Assembly (NCBI RefSeq): GCF_028681615.1
Contig: NZ_JAQUHV010000001.1
Span: 124,001 to 188,000 of the forward strand
Length of the DNA: 64,000 bases
Origin: Sulfuricurvum sp.
GTDB lineage: Bacteria > Campylobacterota > Campylobacteria > Campylobacterales > Sulfurimonadaceae
Reading direction: 5' to 3'
The notes below the pieces were generated by a model that saw only the letters and a list, made by a program, of their open reading frames with translations, was not told where the DNA came from and made no database searches. A program made the position numbers and the translations under genes. Numbering within the stretch: position 1 is the first letter of the stretch; every line of letters begins with the position of its first letter. This document shows, piece after piece, positions 6,943 to 64,000 of the stretch.

Positions 6943-8520
6943 CTACTCCTTGCGCTCAAGACGGATACCGAACCATCGGTTCATCTTTCCGCTTTTTTCG
7001 ATGTGTTCTATGAGCGCACTGAAAATTCCGTGTGTCCCTAAAATAGCCGTAAACATCGATACCAAAATACCGACGGCCAACGTTACCGCAAACCCTTTGA
7101 TCGGACCGGTTCCGTACATATACAATGCTACGGCCGCAATCAAAGTCGTCAAGTTGGCATCGACGAGGGTACTGAACGCATTGTCATATCCCCCCTCAAT
7201 CGCTTTGCGCACTTTGGCCCCTTCACGAAGAAGCTCACGTATCCGTTCATTGATAATGACGTTACCGTCCACTGCCATACCGACGGTGAGAACGATCCCC
7301 GCCATCCCCGGCAATGTCAAGGTCGCTCCGAACATCGCCATAACAGCAATGATCAAAACAATGTTGATAATCATCGCGGTCGTTGCTATAACACCGGCAT
7401 ACCCGTAATAGGCAACCATAAACAAGACGACCAATGCCGCACCTGTAGCGAATGCAATAAGGCTGGCTTTAATGCTGTCCGCTCCAAGGCTTGGACCAAC
7501 CGAGCGTTTTTCCATCATATAGATAGGAGCCAACAATGCCCCTGAACGCAATGCGATCGCAAGGTCATTCGCTTCGGCAACCGTATAATTACCGCTGATT
7601 TGTCCGCTTCCGCCGCCGATACGTTCATTAATCACCGGAGCTGAGTAAACTTTGCCGTCCAAAACAATCGCGAGACGCTTGCCGACACTTTTACCGGTAA
7701 AGTCACCGAAAATCTGCGCTCCGGCAGAGTTGAGTGAAAAATTGATCACAGGGCGGTTGTTTTGATCGTATCCGACATGCGCATCGGTCAACATCGTTCC
7801 ATCCAAGATAGGGATTTCATTGACCAAATGTTTAAGCTGCGGCTGAAGCGCATCATCGAGAATTTTATCCCCGTAACTTGCCGCTTCGGCTTCATCCATT
7901 TCATTTACCCGCATCGAACGGTCTTCATCAACCGCCATCAATTCAAGCTTCGCGGCACGGGAAATCAATTCGCGCGCACGTTGTTCTTCTTGTGGTGTCT
8001 TAATCCCCGGAAGCTCTACAAGGATTTTATCGATCCCTTGTCGTGCAACCGTCGGTTCTGCAAGCCCGAACTGATCCAGACGGTTACGAATCGTTTCGAT
8101 TGCCTGATCGACCGCACGGACTTTAAGTTTTTCGATTGCTTCAGGGGTCATACTGATCGTATATTTCCCTGCACTCGCATGGACAACCGTTCCTTCAATT
8201 GTTTTAAGGTAGGTATCGATCGCTGTCGCATCATCCGCATCTATCAGATCGAATGTTACTTTATTCTCTTGCGCGCTAATGGCATCGAGTAGAATATCAT
8301 TATGTTCGCCGTAATGTTTAAGCGCCGACGCAATCGATTTCATCTGCGAATTTACCGCTTCATCGGTTTTGACACCCAACAGCATGTGGAGTCCGCCTTG
8401 AAGGTCAAGCCCCAATGTGATTTTTTTTCCTTCACTGCTTTGCGTGAACGAAGGAATCGAGAAAACGAGCCCGATAACCGTAGCGATGATCAGTAAAACG
8501 ACGCGATAATTAAGCTTCAT
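6943..8520 (-). CDS. secD: Protein translocase subunit SecD
   Basis: The 525-residue inner-membrane SecD. It has an N-terminal membrane segment, then LGLDLQGGLHMLLGV near residue 37, a large periplasmic domain (about 50-330), and a C-terminal bundle with GMAVDGNVIINERIRE, the conserved proton-path motif. With SecF and YajC it forms the auxiliary Sec complex. The start overlaps yajC by 11 bases. The length fits Campylobacterota SecD, which is shorter than the E. coli protein. Confidence 0.97.
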   Translation of the reverse strand: MKLNYRVVLLIIATVIGLVFSIPSFTQSSEGKKITLGLDLQGGLHMLLGVKTDEAVNSQMKSIASALKHYGEHNDILLDAISAQENKVTFDLIDADDATAIDTYLKTIEGTVVHASAGKYTISMTPEAIEKLKVRAVDQAIETIRNRLDQFGLAEPTVARQGIDKILVELPGIKTPQEEQRARELISRAAKLELMAVDEDRSMRVNEMDEAEAASYGDKILDDALQPQLKHLVNEIPILDGTMLTDAHVGYDQNNRPVINFSLNSAGAQIFGDFTGKSVGKRLAIVLDGKVYSAPVINERIGGGSGQISGNYTVAEANDLAIALRSGALLAPIYMMEKRSVGPSLGADSIKASLIAFATGAALVVLFMVAYYGYAGVIATTAMIINIVLIIAVMAMFGATLTLPGMAGIVLTVGMAVDGNVIINERIRELLREGAKVRKAIEGGYDNAFSTLVDANLTTLIAAVALYMYGTGPIKGFAVTLAVGILVSMFTAILGTHGIFSALIEHIEKSGKMNRWFGIRLERKE

Positions 8521-8776
8521 CCTCGTACTTTCGCGCCACTGCGTCTTTTACAAGACGCGCTTCAGTGTCATTGTTGAATTTCACAGCAAAAAATTGCTCT
8601 TCGACTTTTTTGATCTCGACGATTAAGCCGCCGCTTGTAACGACTTTATCCCCTTTGGTGAGTGCTTCCACCATTTCTTTGTGTTTTTTAGCCTGTTGGT
8701 TTTGGGGACGAATGATCACGAAGTACATAATAGCGATCAAAAAGACGAAAGGGAGTATTTGAGTGAGAATTTCCAT
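8510..8776 (-). CDS. yajC: Preprotein translocase subunit YajC
   Basis: A small single-pass inner-membrane protein of the SecDF-YajC complex. I chose the ATG at 8776 (MEILTQILPFVFLIAIMYF) because an AAGGATATCT ribosome site precedes it and it gives the usual 88-residue YajC. An in-frame start at 8866 would add 30 unrelated residues and run into lnt. After the membrane helix comes the family motif IIRPQNQQAKKHKEM, then the GDKVVTSGGLI beta-hairpin region. It overlaps secD by 11 bases. Confidence 0.93.
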   Translation of the reverse strand: MEILTQILPFVFLIAIMYFVIIRPQNQQAKKHKEMVEALTKGDKVVTSGGLIVEIKKVEEQFFAVKFNNDTEARLVKDAVARKYEDEA

Positions 8777-56104: not shown

Positions 56105-58090
56105 TTAAATATCAAGCTTTATTTCTTCAGAAGTATAATAGGTAATACGGTTACGTCCCATCTCTTTGGATCGGTACATTGCTGCATCGGCGTGACGGAG
56201 AAGAATATCGATTTCTTCGCAATCATCCGGGAATAACGTCGCACCGATACTGACACCGATCGTTATTGTTATTCCATCTACCTCAATCGGCTCTTTTAAC
56301 GCTTCGAGTATCCGTACCAAAAGCTCATGCGCGTCTTCACTGTTAATATCGCTTAGAAGAATCACAAACTCATCCCCGCCCATACGGGCGATAATGTCAC
56401 TTTGACGCAGTTGTTGAGCTAACCGCGCTCCCGCCTTCTGTAAAATTCGGTCTCCCATTGCATGACCGTATCCGTCATTCACCTGTTTAAATCCGTCCAA
56501 ATCCAAAAAAGCCACAATGGCTTTGGAGCCTTTTCGTTTGGAAAAAGCCAGCATCTGTTCCGCCAATGTCATATACATATGACGGTTAGGAAGATTGGTC
56601 AGCGGATCGTAATTGACCAAACGATGAAGCTGCTCTTCTTGTTTTTTATGTTCCGTAATATCGCTGAAAATACCGATATAATTTTCAATATCGCCATCCG
56701 TATTGCGTACAGCATCAACACGTAAAAACTCAGCATATTCCTGCCCGCTTTTTTTCTTATTCCAAATCTCGCCGCGCCATGATCCTTCTCTCTCTAGCGC
56801 CTGATCGATTTGAGCGTAAAAAAACGGGCTATGCCGTCCTGAGCGCAAAATAATCGGTTTTTTCCCGATCACATCTTCTCGTGTATAACCCGTTAATCCG
56901 CAAAAAGCTTCATTGACGTCGATAATAATCTTAGACGCATCGGTTATGATAATACCCTCACGGGAATTATGAAAAACATTGGCAATCCGTCTGAGATATT
57001 TTTGCGTCTCTTCTCGAATAGTGATCTGTTCTTCCAATGCCTGAGACTCTTTTTTAAGTGTTTTAGTCAGTTTTCGCAATCGGTATGCTAAAAAAAGCAA
57101 GATCGCACTTAATGTCCCCAATAACACAATAATACTCACTGCATATTTTCGGATAACGTCATTCACCGTAAATGCCGGGGTTTTATCAAAGGGGGGAACT
57201 CTCATCTCTTCCATAATGGCCCGTATCCCCTCATACGCAAGAGGAACACTCCAGCCATAATAACCGGCGTTTTTCGGTATTTCTGATCCGCGCGGAAGCG
57301 AGAGCAATGCAACTGCAACCTGATTGGCTAATTCGGGATCTGTCTCTTTGAACGCTACAAACGGCCATTCCGGGTAAAGCTGCGTTGAGAGGGCCTGAGG
57401 GAAATTTTCGATTTTCTGAGGGTTGATAATTTTAAAATCATCCCGATTGATTTTTCCCTCTTTTGCCATCTTTTCCAAAACGCCGGTACGGATAAATCCC
57501 GCATCCGCAGAACCGCTTTCAACAATATAGACAACTTTGTCATGCGGCATATCGGTAAATGTTACGTTAGAACTTCGAGAAATATCAATTCCCTTTGAAA
57601 GTAAAACATTGCTTTGCGCTAAATACCCTCCCAACGAGAGTTCATCGACAGCGGCTATATTTTTACCCTTTAAATCTTCTAAGTTATTAATGTCCTTCCG
57701 ATCGCTTCGGGATATGATAACCCCTCCAAACTCTTTGAGCTCATTACCGCTGACATTAGCACGTATAAGGGTGGCAATTCTGGTTGCATTGTATAGTGCC
57801 GAAAAATAGACATAATGTTCCGGATTGGTAAAGGCGAAGTCGAGCTCTTTTTTAGCAACGGCTTCATTGAATTCTTTATAACTAAAAGGCTTGATAATAA
57901 AAGAGTGGGAAGGGATTTTCTGATCTAAATAATGAGCAAGAGGCGTCCATTCATTTAGGGTATCTTCTTTCGAGCGAAAGGCTAAGACACCTATGACTAC
58001 TTGGTGTTTATCCGCAGAAGCGGATAAAGCATGAAGAGGTACAATACAAGTTAAAAGGGTAAAAAAAACACTAATAAAAGCCTTCTTCAT
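56105..58090 (-). CDS. Periplasmic PhnD-like sensor with PAS and GGDEF domains
   Basis: A 661-residue inner-membrane protein. In order: signal peptide (about 1-25); a PhnD-type solute-binding domain (about 30-300; VVIGVLAFRSKEDTLNEW, FAFTNPEHYVYF, LKGKNIAAVDELS); membrane helix (about 315-335); PAS domain (about 370-485); GGDEF domain with the active motif at 571-575 and an RxxD inhibitory site five residues before. It is predicted to make cyclic di-GMP in response to a periplasmic ligand. The ATG at 58090 follows GAGGT; a start at 58102 adds four residues. It lies 54 bases after the DUF302 gene. Confidence 0.92.
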   Translation of the reverse strand: MKKAFISVFFTLLTCIVPLHALSASADKHQVVIGVLAFRSKEDTLNEWTPLAHYLDQKIPSHSFIIKPFSYKEFNEAVAKKELDFAFTNPEHYVYFSALYNATRIATLIRANVSGNELKEFGGVIISRSDRKDINNLEDLKGKNIAAVDELSLGGYLAQSNVLLSKGIDISRSSNVTFTDMPHDKVVYIVESGSADAGFIRTGVLEKMAKEGKINRDDFKIINPQKIENFPQALSTQLYPEWPFVAFKETDPELANQVAVALLSLPRGSEIPKNAGYYGWSVPLAYEGIRAIMEEMRVPPFDKTPAFTVNDVIRKYAVSIIVLLGTLSAILLFLAYRLRKLTKTLKKESQALEEQITIREETQKYLRRIANVFHNSREGIIITDASKIIIDVNEAFCGLTGYTREDVIGKKPIILRSGRHSPFFYAQIDQALEREGSWRGEIWNKKKSGQEYAEFLRVDAVRNTDGDIENYIGIFSDITEHKKQEEQLHRLVNYDPLTNLPNRHMYMTLAEQMLAFSKRKGSKAIVAFLDLDGFKQVNDGYGHAMGDRILQKAGARLAQQLRQSDIIARMGGDEFVILLSDINSEDAHELLVRILEALKEPIEVDGITITIGVSIGATLFPDDCEEIDILLRHADAAMYRSKEMGRNRITYYTSEEIKLDI

Positions 58091-58144: not shown

Positions 58145-59056
58145 CTACTCCACTGTACTTTGAAGAACACTTTCAAAATCTTTTTGTGCTTGCATTAACA
58201 CTTCTTTAGCTTCAGCATCATTCACAGCGGCACTGCTCATCCAGTTATAAACTCCCGGGAATCCCATAACGATTTCAGCAGCATCTTTTTTCTTATACAC
58301 CATCAATGTACACGGTGCAAAAGCCGATGCTTCCGGACGGGTTTTAGCTACCGTGTAAATAACTTTGAGCTTGCAGATGGAGTATGTATCGTAAAAACTA
58401 AACGGACTCTCCTCCCCGTTTTCAGTCAACATGAACTGATAATCGGTAAAGTTTGAAAGGACAAATCCGGCAGGTTTAAGCCCCTCTTCGAGCATCATTT
58501 CGGCATCGTCTTTATCGCTTTGCCAGTTTTTTACATCGGTCTTTTTCACAAATCGGGTCAACAGCTTCCCTTCAGCCGGTAATGAAGTGGCGCTCTTTGT
58601 TTGTTTCGTCGTTTTCGGAAGAACGGTTTTTAGCGTTGCAAAAACCTTTTTTTCGATCACAGTAAATTCGGGTGCTTTAAATCCGGCGATCTTTTGCATC
58701 GCATCGGCGCTCAAGACGGATACGTGCAGATCTTTTTCACCTTTACGTTGGTAGATTCCTACCCCCATCGGTACGAAAATACCGCCGTCCGGATGGCTTT
58801 TGACCAAAGAGGCAGCCTCTTTTTTAGGGATAACTGTCATTAAATTAAATACGGCAAAGTCGCTTTCTCCGAATTGTTTGTTGAACGGACCCGTCATCTC
58901 TGAGTCTGCCGCTATCACAAAACCATTGGCCTCAAATGCTTTTTCAATCATTGTCGGGGTCAGCTTTCCATCGGCGTTAGGCGCGCTGAAAAGGTGTAAG
59001 TCACCCCCAAAAAGGGACAAAAATCCCGCTAACACTACTAGTACAATTGCTTTCAT
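58145..59056 (-). CDS. Periplasmic protein with two DUF302-type domains
   Basis: A 303-residue exported protein: signal peptide at about 1-20, then two halves of similar pattern. The first (about 32-125) has IEKAFEANGFVIAADSEMTGPFN and VPMGVGIYQRKGEKDLHVSVL. The second (about 190-300) has AEMMLEEGLKPAGFVLSNFT and CTLMVYKKKDAAEIVMGFP. DUF302 proteins are small, function unknown, and often encoded with sulfur or metal genes. It follows the DsrE-like gene by 11 bases. Confidence 0.75.
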   Translation of the reverse strand: MKAIVLVVLAGFLSLFGGDLHLFSAPNADGKLTPTMIEKAFEANGFVIAADSEMTGPFNKQFGESDFAVFNLMTVIPKKEAASLVKSHPDGGIFVPMGVGIYQRKGEKDLHVSVLSADAMQKIAGFKAPEFTVIEKKVFATLKTVLPKTTKQTKSATSLPAEGKLLTRFVKKTDVKNWQSDKDDAEMMLEEGLKPAGFVLSNFTDYQFMLTENGEESPFSFYDTYSICKLKVIYTVAKTRPEASAFAPCTLMVYKKKDAAEIVMGFPGVYNWMSSAAVNDAEAKEVLMQAQKDFESVLQSTVE

Positions 59057-59067
59057 ACTAAAACTCC

Positions 59068-59502
59068 TTATGGATGGATATAAACGGCGCCCTCAGCGGA
59101 ACGCTCTATAATTTCTGCGATACCGGCACTGACAATCTCAACCCCGTCGATTAATTCTGAGGGTTGAATATTTTTAGTACGCATAGTATTTCCGCACGCA
59201 ACAAATTCAACCCCGTATTGTTGAAGTGCATCAACACGCGGGGCGAATTCTTTCTCTCTTTTCAAGACGGTACGTATACCGTGATAATACGCAACAATGC
59301 GCATATGCACTTTTTCCGGACCGTAAAACTTTAAGACATTGTTCGCGGTGCTAAGGACATGCTGAATCGTCTCATCATCTCCGGAGCTCACCCCTAAAAC
59401 AACCTCTCTGGGTTTGTCTATTGACGGCACCGGCTCAGCCAAGCGGGTATCCGCAAACACAGCAGATGCCAATACCAACAACAAGATCATTATCTTTTTC
59501 AT
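59068..59502 (-). CDS. Periplasmic DsrE-like protein
   Basis: A 144-residue exported protein with a signal peptide (MKKIMILLLVLASAVFA). The body reads REVVLGVSSGDDETIQHVLSTANNVLKFYG, HMRIVAYYHGIRTVL and VEFVACGNTMRTKNIQPSELIDGVEIVSAGIAEI, the pattern of DsrE/DsrF-like proteins. The cysteine in ACGNT is at the position used for sulfur transfer in some relatives. Start at 59502 by GGAG. It overlaps the metallo-beta-lactamase-fold gene by 4 bases. Confidence 0.82.
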   Translation of the reverse strand: MKKIMILLLVLASAVFADTRLAEPVPSIDKPREVVLGVSSGDDETIQHVLSTANNVLKFYGPEKVHMRIVAYYHGIRTVLKREKEFAPRVDALQQYGVEFVACGNTMRTKNIQPSELIDGVEIVSAGIAEIIERSAEGAVYIHP

Positions 59503-60407
59503 TTTTGCTCCCATTCCAACGTTCGATACGCTGCTTCTACATTTCCTCGGTGCATTGAATCGTACATATGCAACGTTTGGAAAGCCGGCATTTTGACTTT
59601 ATCGATTGTCTCTTCTATCCCTAATCCCTCATCAAGAGCTTTTCGGATTTCACTGCGCATCTCGCTTAAATACGCATAAGTCATATCGATTGCACCTTTA
59701 TCGGTACGATATCCATGCCCACCGACAATCGTTTTGGCACTGTAACCCTTTAACTCATCCAGTGCTGAAATCCAGCCGTTGATATCTCCCCCCTTGAGAG
59801 AGGGGACACGATCATTGAAGACAAGATCTCCGGCAAACAGAACTTGGGCCTTTGGGACAAATAGTACCATATCTTTGGCGGTGTGTGCCCGCTGTTTCAT
59901 AAAATGAAATTCCAGAATCTGATCCCCGATACTCAGATTTTCATCCGAAGTAATTATCTCAGACGGCAGTGTCGGAACAGTTTTAGCATACGCTTCGGGA
60001 GAGATATAGGTTTGCATTCGGGTCGGTTCACGCGTATCCGCGTTCACTTTGAAATCTTCTGAACCCAAAACTCTAACTCCCATTTGGGTAAAAAACCCGT
60101 TCCCGAGCCAATGATCGTCATGTACATGCGTGTTAACTACCAGAAGAACCGGTAACGGTTTGATCGCTTGCATCTTTTTGAATGCCGATGCCGCATAATT
60201 ATACGAAGAGCCGCTGTCGATAACAACATAGCCCTTCGCCGTATCAAGATAACAGGTGTTAACCATATTGCCGTTATTAGTCGTATTCATCGCTTCGGGC
60301 ATACCGAAAAAACAGGTCACTTCGGAAGTGATCTGTTTTGGGCTCAGCGGCAGTTCATACGCACTGAGCCCGATAACGAAGATACATAAAAGCAATAAAA
60401 ATCGCAT
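59499..60407 (-). CDS. Periplasmic metallo-beta-lactamase-fold hydrolase
   Basis: A 302-residue exported metal hydrolase with a signal peptide (about 1-16). The metal motif THVHDDHW (HxHxDH) is present, followed by RAHTAKDMVLFV and LVFNDRVPSLKGGDINGWI, then VGGHG. The DRVPSLKGGDI-type motif occurs in SoxH-like and quinoprotein-linked members. Candidate substrates are thioesters or sulfur intermediates, which the sequence does not settle. It lies 10 bases after the porin gene. Confidence 0.88.
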   Translation of the reverse strand: MRFLLLLCIFVIGLSAYELPLSPKQITSEVTCFFGMPEAMNTTNNGNMVNTCYLDTAKGYVVIDSGSSYNYAASAFKKMQAIKPLPVLLVVNTHVHDDHWLGNGFFTQMGVRVLGSEDFKVNADTREPTRMQTYISPEAYAKTVPTLPSEIITSDENLSIGDQILEFHFMKQRAHTAKDMVLFVPKAQVLFAGDLVFNDRVPSLKGGDINGWISALDELKGYSAKTIVGGHGYRTDKGAIDMTYAYLSEMRSEIRKALDEGLGIEETIDKVKMPAFQTLHMYDSMHRGNVEAAYRTLEWEQK

Positions 60408-60417
60408 CCTTTATCCC

Positions 60418-62019
60418 TTAAAAGAGGTAGTTGATCTCGAAACGGTATTCATCATATGATGCATAATCCGTTGTTGCTTGAGTCCCAAGAACAGGGCTTG
60501 TTCCCGTATACAGGTTGTCCGCATTTACTGTTGCAAAGCGGAATTTAAACTCAGTATTTGGAATTTCTTTGAATGTTTTCCACATATCAACATGAAAAAT
60601 ATCACGATCTGAGAATCCGCTAGAATAAGCTTTTCCTTCATCAAAATTCATATTCTCATAATCGGCGGCTACTTTGAAACCTTCGATAATGCCAGCTTTT
60701 CCAAAATCATACGTTGCTTTTACAGCCCAGCTTTTAGTGTTAGCAATCCAGTCTACCTGTGCCATCGAACGGGTATACCCACCTGTAGGAAATCCCCGCC
60801 ACGGAGCGATGATATCAGCGTCATTGGCTACTTTTGAATATCCAACTTGTAATGCGAGAGGACCGTTTTCCGCCACGAGACGTGCCATAATGATACTTCC
60901 GTCTACACTATCAGGATTCGTATAGTTTGCACGTGCATTAGCACGTTTTGCAGCATCAGGAAGACCACTACTATTAAAAGCAACTACATTACCACTCAAA
61001 GCAGCGCCCCCAATCGCACCGGCACCGTCATCCATCTGACGAAGATATCGGACACCAGGAGTCAGTGTCCATGCATCGTTCACTTTAATCTTATAATTGC
61101 CTTCAGTCACAAGGGTATTGAAAAATCCGCTGATTCCTACATATTCAGCATCAAGTTTCAAATTAGAAATCGATTTGTTAGAAGCCGTTAGTAATAGCAT
61201 TTCAGGATCTACATCCCCTCCAGCTTGACGGATGTTATAAACACTAAGACCTTTATGAACACCAGAATCATCATTCTCGTAGACTTTATCACCCTTCACT
61301 GCAACAGATGTGTCTCCTTGATCATAAGCTAATATACTATGAAATTCCTGGTGGTCACGTAGCTTTTGGCTCATGATATAACCTGCACGTAGTGTTGTAT
61401 TTGGAAGGTCTTTATTCTCCATAACCGCTGCTTCGAACGTATTTGGAATCATTTTTGTGTCATTGGTCGCGAGCATAATACTATCGATCCCTTGACGCCC
61501 GATTTTGACATCGGTTTTGCCGTGTTTATACTCTCCGTACGCTTCAGCAAATACACCAATGGATGCTTCTGTACCATCCGGACGTGTACGATAAGTATCT
61601 TTTCCTGATTTTCCATAGTTAGCAGTAAGTGTATTTGTAGTGTTGCTGACAGTATTTTCGCCTACCATCGGAACCGTTCCGTAAAATCCGACTGTTGCAC
61701 CAAAGCCTTTAAAAAATCCTGTTTTATAAACTAGACTTCCTCCAAGACCCCATTGATTATTGTCATGAGTACGTTTATAAATATCACTGTTTGTCAAATC
61801 TTCATTTTCCCAATCATACCAAAACATGTTCGAACGAAGGCGTCCATAAACTTCTCCTTTGGTAAACATTTCAGTGAATGAATTAACATCACCTGGCGCT
61901 TTAGTATATTCAACCTGATAATTATCTTTGAGCACGCGATCTTCTGTTTTAAGCGCATACGCCGACGTCGTCAATAAACATGCGGCAGCTGCTGCCATAC
62001 TAATCTTCATCATTTTCAT
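60418..62019 (-). CDS. OprD-like outer-membrane porin
   Basis: A 533-residue outer-membrane beta-barrel. Signal peptide at about 1-22 (MKMMKISMAAAAACLLTTSAYA), then alternating strands such as GEVYGRLRSNMFWYDW, FGATVGFYGTVP and ATYDFGKAGIIEGFKVAADYEN, ending in YRFEINYLF with the terminal phenylalanine needed for Bam insertion. The start at 62019 follows AGGAG; a longer frame to 62136 runs into soxB. The permeant substrate is unknown, but position suggests thiosulfate or another sox-pathway solute. Confidence 0.85.
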   Translation of the reverse strand: MKMMKISMAAAAACLLTTSAYALKTEDRVLKDNYQVEYTKAPGDVNSFTEMFTKGEVYGRLRSNMFWYDWENEDLTNSDIYKRTHDNNQWGLGGSLVYKTGFFKGFGATVGFYGTVPMVGENTVSNTTNTLTANYGKSGKDTYRTRPDGTEASIGVFAEAYGEYKHGKTDVKIGRQGIDSIMLATNDTKMIPNTFEAAVMENKDLPNTTLRAGYIMSQKLRDHQEFHSILAYDQGDTSVAVKGDKVYENDDSGVHKGLSVYNIRQAGGDVDPEMLLLTASNKSISNLKLDAEYVGISGFFNTLVTEGNYKIKVNDAWTLTPGVRYLRQMDDGAGAIGGAALSGNVVAFNSSGLPDAAKRANARANYTNPDSVDGSIIMARLVAENGPLALQVGYSKVANDADIIAPWRGFPTGGYTRSMAQVDWIANTKSWAVKATYDFGKAGIIEGFKVAADYENMNFDEGKAYSSGFSDRDIFHVDMWKTFKEIPNTEFKFRFATVNADNLYTGTSPVLGTQATTDYASYDEYRFEINYLF

Positions 62020-62053
62020 TCTTAACTCCTTAAGTTTTAATGCATCGCAGGGC

Positions 62054-63820
62054 TTAACAGCCCTTTGAACCTTTACGAGGACAACCGCAATCGTAATCGA
62101 GGATATCCACATTGCTGTGACCGTCGATATTGACATTTTTTTGACGTCGGATGTACGATGCCGTCACATCATAAACCGGACGGGTCAAAGACTCTCGTAG
62201 GTTGGTTCCTGCATTTTGCAAATTACCGCCCCATGAAGAGACTTTGTACGTTTTGTTATCATCCAAAGGTTTCCCTTTGACCAATATATTACTGATACGC
62301 TTACCACTCGGTGCACCGATTTTGATGCTGTACGTAACACCGCCCAAACGGCTCATATCCCCCCCTTGCTGATACAGCGGGTTCGGATTGAACACGTTAT
62401 CGGCAATATCTTCGAGGAGTGAGCGGATATGTTTACCGGTCAATTCAAACGTGTAGACATTAGGATAAGTGATCGCCGTCATATCATAGACACTGTCCAT
62501 AGTAATCGCGTCTCCGCCGAGTACCGTCGTTCCCCATCGATATCCCGGAGTAAACGAGATGTCCGAATCCATCGTATCGATGATCGCATCATTGATGAGT
62601 TCGTCGAACGGTGAATGGAAGGTATCACGTTTGTACAAGATGTTTTTGGTCACACCGAGTACTTCGCTAAACTCTTTCTCATGCGGAGCATACAGAGAGT
62701 TCACCAATTCGACCCCTTCAGGGTCAGCCGGGATCAAGTTTGCCGCTACCGGGATCAGTTTGTACTCATACCCTTTGACTTTATGGTTTTTGATATCGAT
62801 ATCCAAACGCCCGATATATTTACCATGGCTTCCCGCAATCACGATCACCGTACCGTTGATAACCGTCGGCTGAGGAGACGGGTCATGCGTATGTCCGCTG
62901 AGGATGAAATCGATCCCTTTGACTTGTCGCGCAACCTCTTGGTCAACGCTGAAACCGTCATGCGACAACACGACAACACAGTCCACTTTTTCCTCTTTAC
63001 GTAGTTTATCGACATACGTTTGAAGAGTATCCAAACGGAGACCGAAACTCCACCCTTGGGTAAACTCTTTCGGATTTGCCGTAGAGGTAAACGGAAACGA
63101 CTGACCGATGATACCGATCTTCGCACCGCCCCGTTCTTGAATCGTGTATGGTTTAAAAATCAACTCTTCGAAATCTTCGGCAAATGAATCATCTCCGATG
63201 ATATTTTGGGAGATAAACGTCGCATTTAGCATTTCGATCAGCTCTTTAACCCGTGTTTTGCCATAGGTAAATTCCCAGTGACCGACCATAACGTCGACAC
63301 CGAGGTAATTTTGCGCTTTAACGATTGCTTCACCGGTCGTTTTGAGCGCCAGACCTGTACCCTGCCATGTATCACCCGAGTCCAGAAGCATGACATTATC
63401 CGCCCCGCGCTCTTTTTTGATATGGTTGATGAGGGTTTTCATATGGGCGATCCCCCCCATTTTCCCGAATTTGTGTGCCAATGCATCAAAATTCATATGG
63501 GTATCGAAATAGGCATCGAGCGTTTTGCCTTTCATGCCGTAATGTTTTAAAAACGATTCACCGCACAAAAATCCGGGAGTTCCCGTAAGATTCGGTGCCG
63601 AAATCAGTGTCGAAGGCTCACGCCAGTACAGCGGTTTGATATGCGCATGCATATCACAGATATGCAACAGCGTCACATTTCCGCGGGCATTAAATGAATA
63701 AATATCTTTCAACCCTACCTCATCAGCCCGTTTCGGGGTTGAAGCGGCTGAACCAAGAGTCGGCAAACCGATCCCTAGTGCGGCGGCGATATGGAAAAAA
63801 TCTCTGCGTGATACGTCCAT
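62054..63820 (-). CDS. soxB: Thiosulfohydrolase SoxB
   Basis: A periplasmic dimanganese enzyme that releases sulfate from cysteine-S-thiosulfonate on SoxYZ. The 588 residues start with a twin-arginine signal (MDVSRRDFFHIAAALGIG). Metal ligands lie in HICDMHAHIKP, LDSGDTWQGT, MVGHWEFTYG, LSHDGFS and SGHTHDPSPQP. The protein ends in an unusual cysteine cluster CGCPRKGSKGC. GGGGAGAGT precedes the ATG. It follows the soxA fragment by 10 bases. Confidence 0.96.
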   Translation of the reverse strand: MDVSRRDFFHIAAALGIGLPTLGSAASTPKRADEVGLKDIYSFNARGNVTLLHICDMHAHIKPLYWREPSTLISAPNLTGTPGFLCGESFLKHYGMKGKTLDAYFDTHMNFDALAHKFGKMGGIAHMKTLINHIKKERGADNVMLLDSGDTWQGTGLALKTTGEAIVKAQNYLGVDVMVGHWEFTYGKTRVKELIEMLNATFISQNIIGDDSFAEDFEELIFKPYTIQERGGAKIGIIGQSFPFTSTANPKEFTQGWSFGLRLDTLQTYVDKLRKEEKVDCVVVLSHDGFSVDQEVARQVKGIDFILSGHTHDPSPQPTVINGTVIVIAGSHGKYIGRLDIDIKNHKVKGYEYKLIPVAANLIPADPEGVELVNSLYAPHEKEFSEVLGVTKNILYKRDTFHSPFDELINDAIIDTMDSDISFTPGYRWGTTVLGGDAITMDSVYDMTAITYPNVYTFELTGKHIRSLLEDIADNVFNPNPLYQQGGDMSRLGGVTYSIKIGAPSGKRISNILVKGKPLDDNKTYKVSSWGGNLQNAGTNLRESLTRPVYDVTASYIRRQKNVNIDGHSNVDILDYDCGCPRKGSKGC

Positions 63821-63830
63821 ACTCTCCCCC

Positions 63831-64000
63831 TTAGCGTTTCAAGCCCGGGATTTGAATCTCGTTGCCTTTTGTTTTATTAGTAATGTAGACTTCGAGTCCT
63901 ACCATCTCACGAGAACCCAACGGGATTTTTGCTAACAACGCATTATCCATACATTGTTGGAAACGTTTATCCAATAATGTTGTTTCGCTTTTTGTCATAC
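63831..64000 (-). CDS. soxA: SoxA cytochrome, C-terminal fragment
   Basis: A gene cut by the right edge. The visible 55 codons read TTLLDKRFQQCMDNALLAK, then IPLGSREMVGLEVYITNKTKG and end IPGLKR. This resembles the diheme or monoheme SoxA cytochrome, which joins thiosulfate to SoxYZ with SoxX. The pattern 'Cys, PxGS, LExY, KG' is the SoxA C-terminal heme-domain edge. The heme-binding CxxCH motif is off the window. The position just before soxB supports the call; SoxX or an unrelated cytochrome is possible. Confidence 0.58.
   Translation of the reverse strand, partial: MTKSETTLLDKRFQQCMDNALLAKIPLGSREMVGLEVYITNKTKGNEIQIPGLKR

Follow-up and report, generated by a model that had tools for sequence, protein, structure and literature searches.

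A conserved accessory gene set behind soxB in Sulfuricurvum and other Campylobacterota, with a proposed role in handling SoxY-bound sulfur

Behind soxA and soxB on the minus strand of a Sulfuricurvum sp. contig lie four genes for proteins that are predicted to be exported: an OprD-family outer membrane porin, a SoxH-type metallo-beta-lactamase-fold hydrolase, a DsrE-family protein, and a protein with two DUF302 domains. We analyzed them within a window of 64,000 nucleotides (positions 124001-188000 of contig 1; coordinates below follow window numbering unless a locus is named) taken from a 2.66 Mb draft genome (38 contigs, 99.99% complete). It is nearly certain that these four genes serve the Sox pathway. 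They form the distal end of an operon for thiosulfate oxidation that is conserved in the Campylobacterota, and we propose a scheme in which porin, Sox proteins, DsrE, DUF302 protein, and hydrolase each take a part; for operon and scheme taken together, we estimate a probability of about 0.5.

A conserved gene set tied to soxB

The window captures the 3′ portion of a same-strand array that leads from a Cache sensor (devoid of a kinase domain), a response regulator, and a histidine kinase via soxX, soxY, soxZ, soxA, and soxB to the porin, hydrolase, DsrE, and double DUF302 genes, with the part from the sensor to soxZ located upstream of the window edge. The last 56 codons of soxA fall within the window (63831-64000, minus strand, as for all features below; the gene extends to 64598 and corresponds to 7831-8598 of locus L003; TIGR04484, 196 bits) and are followed by soxB, encoding the thiosulfohydrolase (62054-63820; TIGR04486, 817 bits against a cut-off of 550), the porin gene (60418-62019, with its ATG at 62019; PF03573, 1e-12, 48.3 vs 25 bits), the hydrolase gene (59499-60407; Lactamase_B, 4e-19), the DsrE gene (59068-59502, 144 amino acids; PF02635, 1e-8, 35.6 vs 22.7 bits), and the double DUF302 gene (58145-59056, 303 amino acids; PF03625, 2e-6, 27.8 vs 23 bits, in the second half). 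A first-pass annotation, made from the letters of this DNA, had named these genes, their order, and their strand, with gaps of 34, 10, −4 (an overlap), and 11 bases ahead of the four accessory genes; its coordinates and gaps proved exact, and Pfam and NCBIfam back every assignment. The export signals that it had read into all four proteins were borne out by hydropathy, as each of them begins with positive charges that lead into a hydrophobic segment, and so do 82-100% of their homologues.

The link to sox, likewise drawn in the first-pass annotation, held when we examined the neighborhoods of 60 further soxB or DUF302 loci of the order and of 80 named DsrE loci. Far from lying mostly away from sox, the homologues were accompanied by sox genes in all 62 named loci with sufficient upstream sequence; in the other 18 of the 80, the contig ends at most 2.6 kb from DsrE. 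Porin, hydrolase, DsrE, and DUF302 genes behind soxB were also found in other genomes of the order, and the named loci contained DUF302 in 74 of 80 and the hydrolase in 54 of 80 cases. Two cluster types could be distinguished. The window cluster is of type A, which comprises sensor–response regulator–histidine kinase–soxXYZAB–porin–hydrolase–thioredoxin–DsrE–double DUF302 and occurs in the Sulfurimonadaceae, Sulfurovaceae, Nitratiruptoraceae, Hydrogenimonadaceae, and Sulfurospirillaceae, in some instances without the hydrolase. Type B comprises soxCD–soxXYZA–small lipoprotein–soxB–thioredoxin–MOSC–DsrE–alpha/beta hydrolase and has neither porin nor DUF302. An exported thioredoxin usually precedes DsrE—in most loci it separates the latter from the hydrolase—and is missing in typical Sulfuricurvum loci (L098-L113); thus, Sulfuricurvum has its own four-gene version where a set of five is usual. 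The operon proposed from the sequence also gained ground, since spacing is kept across many genomes (median gaps in the named loci: 12 bases for DsrE–DUF302, 10 for porin–hydrolase, 10 for soxA–soxB, and −4 for Cache–response regulator) and since, in published RNA data on Sulfurovum indicum (PMC10045233), the dsrE, soxW, and soxH1 genes beside sox are induced 2.2-3.8-fold on thiosulfate.

The tightest association was that between DsrE and soxB. In a sample of 180 genomes spread evenly over the order, true soxB occurred in 56 and DsrE in 55, with DsrE present in 54 of the 56 soxB-positive and 1 of the 124 soxB-negative genomes (Fisher 2e-42, counting genomes rather than independent events). Both soxB-positive genomes without DsrE are fragmented drafts, and in the sole genome with DsrE and no soxB, the contig is cut just upstream of the set. 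DsrE lies within 12 kb of soxB in 43 of 54 genomes; in the remaining 11 it is not near on the same contig—partly owing to split assemblies—and adjacency alone is therefore insufficient to explain the co-occurrence. Within several families holding both sox-positive and sox-negative genomes, DsrE tracks soxB, so that the match is not confined to one clade. Co-occurrence was looser for the hydrolase (43 of 56 soxB-positive genomes) and for DUF302 (34 of 56), and the hydrolase gene is located at most 12 kb from soxB in 25 of the 43 genomes having both.

Could the four genes be passive neighbors, hitch-hiking with sox and without a role in sulfur oxidation? The set does move as a block, as on a 395 kb plasmid of Sulfurovum mangrovi. 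However, DsrE accompanies soxB even on other contigs, and published Sulfurovum indicum data show dsrE and soxH1 to be induced by thiosulfate (PMC10045233), arguing that mere hitch-hiking is barely conceivable. The plasmid copy itself (NZ_CP087125.1, 294-307 kb; locus L094) spans the whole operon in the order sensor–sox–porin–hydrolase–thioredoxin–DsrE–DUF302–DsrE, with soxB and the porin gene broken across several frames.

Several variants of the clusters were recorded alongside. In nearly all type A operons, the Cache-domain membrane protein without an output domain (L003, 11943-13070) overlaps the response regulator by 4 bases; it may be a third partner in the sox two-component system. In type B clusters, the small lipoprotein-like gene that separates soxA from soxB (L043, 7569-8006) has 15 members and no Pfam match. 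Several type A operons of Sulfurimonas and Sulfurovum have, after DUF302, a second exported DsrE, a distant paralogue of 153-157 amino acids (e.g. L118, 11404-11868). Finally, a one-contig genome (G141; L082, 240-11889) carries hydrolase–thioredoxin–thioredoxin–DsrE–DUF302 exactly triplicated in tandem behind a complete sox operon, with an offset of 3883 bases and identity across 7767 bases, reflecting either a recent amplification or an assembly artefact.

DsrE, DUF302, and the sulfane sulfur on SoxY

The codon for Cys103 of DsrE, within the motif CGNTM, is located at 59194-59196, and this putative persulfide carrier is a cysteine in 52 of 52 aligned proteins as well as in an alphaproteobacterial homologue from Indioceanicola, which is 45% identical and encoded ~5 kb from soxB. 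The nearest named relatives are from metagenome-assembled Sulfuricurvum genomes (97% identity), and the nearest solved structure is MTH1491 (1l1s). The DsrE gene has no dsrF or dsrH neighbors and no DsrA scored above cut-off in the same genome, setting the protein apart from the DsrEFH complex of reverse Dsr systems. There is a precedent in archaea, where thiosulfonate is borne by a cysteine of DsrE3A (PMC4175335).

Whether the DsrE of epsilonproteobacteria aids Sox access to elemental sulfur, S(0), was raised as a question in 2013 (PMC3631710). Along these lines, porin and DsrE might import external S(0) or polysulfide and hand it to the Sox proteins; DsrE-family proteins do carry sulfane sulfur, and Sulfurovum indicum has higher levels of OprD-like porins on S(0) (PMC10045233). 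Yet in the same study, the soxB cluster with dsrE, soxW, and soxH1 is higher on thiosulfate whereas soxCDY2 is higher on S(0), and soxCDY2Z2 alone can oxidize S(0). These data—together with the tracking of soxB by DsrE in our genome sample—make mobilization of external sulfur an improbable function of the set.

SoxCD, which would oxidize SoxY-bound sulfur, is lacking in the organism at hand: no SoxC was found above cut-off in the Sulfuricurvum genome, where only a SorA-like protein reached 179 bits against 420, and its Sox system is thus a truncated one. An Mo-protein encoded at C1:63574 was rejected as SoxC, as it falls below the cut-off and its gene has that of a small cytochrome behind it, the arrangement of SorAB. 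In the 180 genomes, SoxC is also absent in a congener and in two further whole families, and soxCD has been described as missing from S. kujiense, RIFRC-1, and PC08-66 (PMC4288042). Moreover, S. kujiense formed no S(0) on thiosulfate alone (PMC6890823). Something must remove the sulfur from SoxY, and DsrE, which is predicted to be exported, keeps its cysteine in every relative aligned, and goes with SoxB throughout the order, would be the natural acceptor.

We propose that the set relays or discharges, in the periplasm, the sulfane sulfur bound to SoxY when SoxCD is lacking or has its genes in another place; the first-pass annotation had already supposed that the small proteins handle sulfane intermediates or by-products. 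In this scheme, the porin would admit thiosulfate to the periplasm, SoxAX would put it onto SoxY, and SoxB would release sulfate, leaving the sulfane sulfur on SoxY, while SoxCD—the presumed oxidizer of that sulfur—is missing from these clusters and frequently from the whole genome. DsrE, being exported, would then take over the sulfane sulfur and bear it as a persulfide at Cys103, the two-cysteine DUF302 protein (plus the thioredoxin, where present) would resolve this persulfide and reset the thiols, and the SoxH-type zinc enzyme may hydrolyze either a by-product or a SoxY adduct that has become blocked. A bolder version, in which the exported DsrE is an obligate, unrecognized Sox component of the Campylobacterota and forms with the double DUF302 protein a periplasmic relay that replaces or decouples SoxCD, appears rather unlikely to us.

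To our knowledge, DUF302 is a family without known function. In the window protein, the first domain is detectable by fold only, whereas the second passes the PF03625 cut-off. An AlphaFold2 model (pLDDT 93.7) found its best Foldseek matches in 1q9u (E 8e-7, target TM 0.83) and 1j3m, both of which are one-domain DUF302 proteins. Cys228 (codon 58373-58375) and Cys249 (58310-58312) are kept only in the second domain, where each is invariant in 33 of 33 and 60 of 60 sequences. In our alphaproteobacterial comparison, which covers plasmid-borne sox clusters, the same cysteine pair recurs in the sox-linked DUF302 proteins of Methylosinus, Ruegeria, and Paracoccus. As for distribution, DUF302 was present in 17 of 18 genomes with soxB and without soxC; where soxC adjoins soxB it was found in 1 of 19 genomes, as opposed to 33 of 37 otherwise. 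A DUF302 gene has also been reported from SoxCD-less sox clusters of Acidithiobacillia (PMC5037610).

Several observations weigh against the relay. The near-exclusion of DUF302 and soxCD follows cluster type and hence represents few independent events, and DUF302 stands together with soxCD in the sox clusters of Ruegeria and of Sulfitobacter (for the latter, PMC11034169). Several Rhodobacterales sox clusters have no DsrE nearby, and Sulfuricurvum does without the thioredoxin that the scheme would favor. Consensus promoter and terminator scans returned counts close to the shuffled expectation and were uninformative, and our literature search found no experiment on any of the four proteins. Above all, genomes with SoxCD beside soxB have DsrE as well. 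We consequently rejected DsrE as a mere stand-in for SoxCD; it must be useful in type B genomes, too, where it may prime or clear SoxYZ.

For this last reason, we hold the sulfane-relay step only tentatively, at somewhat less than even odds, and regard maintenance of the carrier as its main rival. Here, DsrE, DUF302 protein, and thioredoxin would repair SoxYZ by stripping dead-end polysulfide or oxidized forms off the SoxY cysteine, with the main sulfane flow running elsewhere. In Paracoccus, SoxS and SoxVW are thought to perform such repair; the thioredoxin located behind the hydrolase and ahead of DsrE in most loci is reminiscent of SoxW in Paracoccus-type clusters, and retention of DsrE both with and without SoxCD is what one would expect of a repair factor. 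However, Sulfuricurvum keeps DsrE and DUF302 in a cluster without the thioredoxin, and repair leaves the avoidance of soxCD-containing clusters by DUF302 unexplained. On balance, we consider a pure maintenance function unlikely, albeit the most serious competitor of the sulfane relay.

Three further loci of the same genome bear DUF302 or Sox carrier genes. On contig 28 (L188, 64-6940), a second double DUF302 gene lies beside a FadL-like outer membrane protein and a lipoprotein, with a double rhodanese nearby, repeating the theme of an outer-membrane channel, a double DUF302 protein, and sulfur transfer. Contig 6 (L193, 4691-10173) encodes a SoxYZ-fusion carrier (TIGR04557, 139 of 140 bits); nearby are genes for a cytochrome c, an NMT1-type ATP-binding cassette (ABC) transporter, and a small DUF302 protein with two cysteines. 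On contig 3 (L192, 2973-6436), a second soxY–soxZ pair is found between flavocytochrome/SQR-like and Rieske-type proteins.

The porin slot, the hydrolase, and the downstream sensor gene

In 58 loci complete with soxB and DsrE, the slot behind soxB was occupied by OprD in 40, by an unrelated barrel in 16, and by neither in 2. The alternative barrel has a weak Porin_4 match, and profile comparison revealed no homology between it and the OprD porin (hhalign, 3.6%). When mapped onto the SoxB tree, the slot switched at least eight times, with six switches forced by well-supported branches. The family profile of the window porin matches solved OprD-family porins including VanP, OpdC, and OpdO. Since the genome holds seven OprD-family matches, a dedicated porin within the operon is not trivial. 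The repeated swap with an unrelated porin argues that the role of the slot is to let a Sox substrate or product through the outer membrane. The first-pass annotation had supposed that the porin admits a reduced sulfur compound; the passage itself thereby gains independent support, while the compound is a matter of conjecture, with thiosulfate the obvious candidate.

The hydrolase matches Paracoccus SoxH over its full length (24% over 317 columns, E 3e-27). An assignment as SoxG was rejected because only an 86-residue piece matches (E 2e-4). Against TIGR04558 and TIGR04559 (quinoprotein relay hydrolase), it scored 188 and 193 bits, below the cut-offs of 300 and 280, and Paracoccus SoxH falls below them too. 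The zinc-ligand motif H94-V-H96-D-D98-H99 (60111-60128) as well as H175, D194, and H231 are invariant in 36 homologues; the Paracoccus and Ruegeria SoxH proteins that we examined have lost this HxHxDH signature, and the Campylobacterota hydrolase may therefore be a different enzyme. Cys32 and Cys52 are also invariant in the 36 relatives and possibly form a disulfide near the active site.

A gene for a PhnD-type sensor with PAS and GGDEF domains (56105-58090) begins 54 bases downstream of the double DUF302 gene and is possibly co-transcribed with the set. Of two congeners sampled, one (L054) has it immediately downstream, while most other genomes have none there, placing it outside the conserved set. 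The sensor part shows a resemblance to the tetrathionate sensor kinase TtrS (at 170 bits, well short of the cut-off), and the protein could possibly be a sulfur-anion sensor that makes cyclic di-GMP. An Rfam search of the window gave no match.

This resemblance touches on another reading of the set, whereby DUF302 protein and zinc hydrolase would act on periplasmic trithionate or tetrathionate, as has been proposed for the DUF302 protein of Thermithiobacillus (PMC5037610). Polythionate users do carry DUF302 in SoxCD-less sox clusters, and the TtrS-like sensor part downstream would fit. But DUF302 has no known hydrolase-like site, the Campylobacterota are best known for the use of thiosulfate and sulfide, and the PhnD–GGDEF gene is not conserved with the set, leaving polythionate handling a highly improbable explanation.

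For Sulfuricurvum and several vent families, which carry Sox for thiosulfate oxidation but no SoxCD, the gene set names testable candidates for the step that deals with the sulfane sulfur on SoxY. At the same time, it places DUF302 in a definite setting and suggests that thiosulfate has its own way across the outer membrane. As Campylobacterota do much of the sulfur oxidation at vents, in caves, and in redoxclines, a missing Sox component would matter to models of the sulfur cycle.

Comparison with known systems

The first-pass annotation did not recognize the unit as a known one. For the whole this stands: in the open-access literature, outside of which most subscription papers fall, we found no description of the complete operon, the porin swaps, the coincidence of DsrE with soxB, or the DUF302/soxCD pattern in the phylum. 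For the parts it does not, as SoxH-type hydrolases are known partners of sox, DsrE and SoxH have been placed beside sox in Sulfurovum, and DUF302 occurs in the sox clusters of Acidithiobacillia and Sulfitobacter (PMC5037610, PMC11034169).

The closest match is the soxABXY1Z1 region of Sulfurovum indicum, a member of the same taxonomic order, whose soxB cluster harbors the same families; the passages of the report that we examined (PMC10045233) make no mention of DUF302 or of a porin in the sox operon there, and Sulfuricurvum differs in having neither thioredoxin nor SoxCD. Paracoccus-type clusters (soxRSVWXYZABCDEFGH) share the soxXYZAB core, a SoxH homologue, and thioredoxin partners. In contrast to the Campylobacterota operon, those examined have no DsrE or porin, are equipped with an ArsR-type SoxR instead of a two-component system, and include soxCD. 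The truncated sox clusters of Acidithiobacillia also lack soxCD and contain DUF302, yet as a single protein of 191 amino acids in a different position—between soxA and soxB—and with no DsrE, hydrolase, or porin reported (PMC5037610).

With the sulfur carriers DsrE, DsrE3A, and TusD, the window DsrE shares the fold and one conserved cysteine, while differing in its predicted export, the absence of adjacent DsrF or DsrH, and a genome without DsrA. Lastly, a plasmid of the alphaproteobacterium Methylosinus trichosporium OB3b (L179) departs from the Campylobacterota arrangement in having a DsrE of just 25% identity, a single-domain DUF302 protein, and neither porin nor hydrolase. The direct sequence link between its DUF302 protein and that of the window was too weak to detect, the two being connected solely by Pfam family and cysteine pair. 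Nevertheless, the plasmid carries soxZ–soxB–DsrE–DsrE–DUF302 with no soxCD nearby and with that same pair of cysteines, similarly to the tail of the Sulfuricurvum operon.

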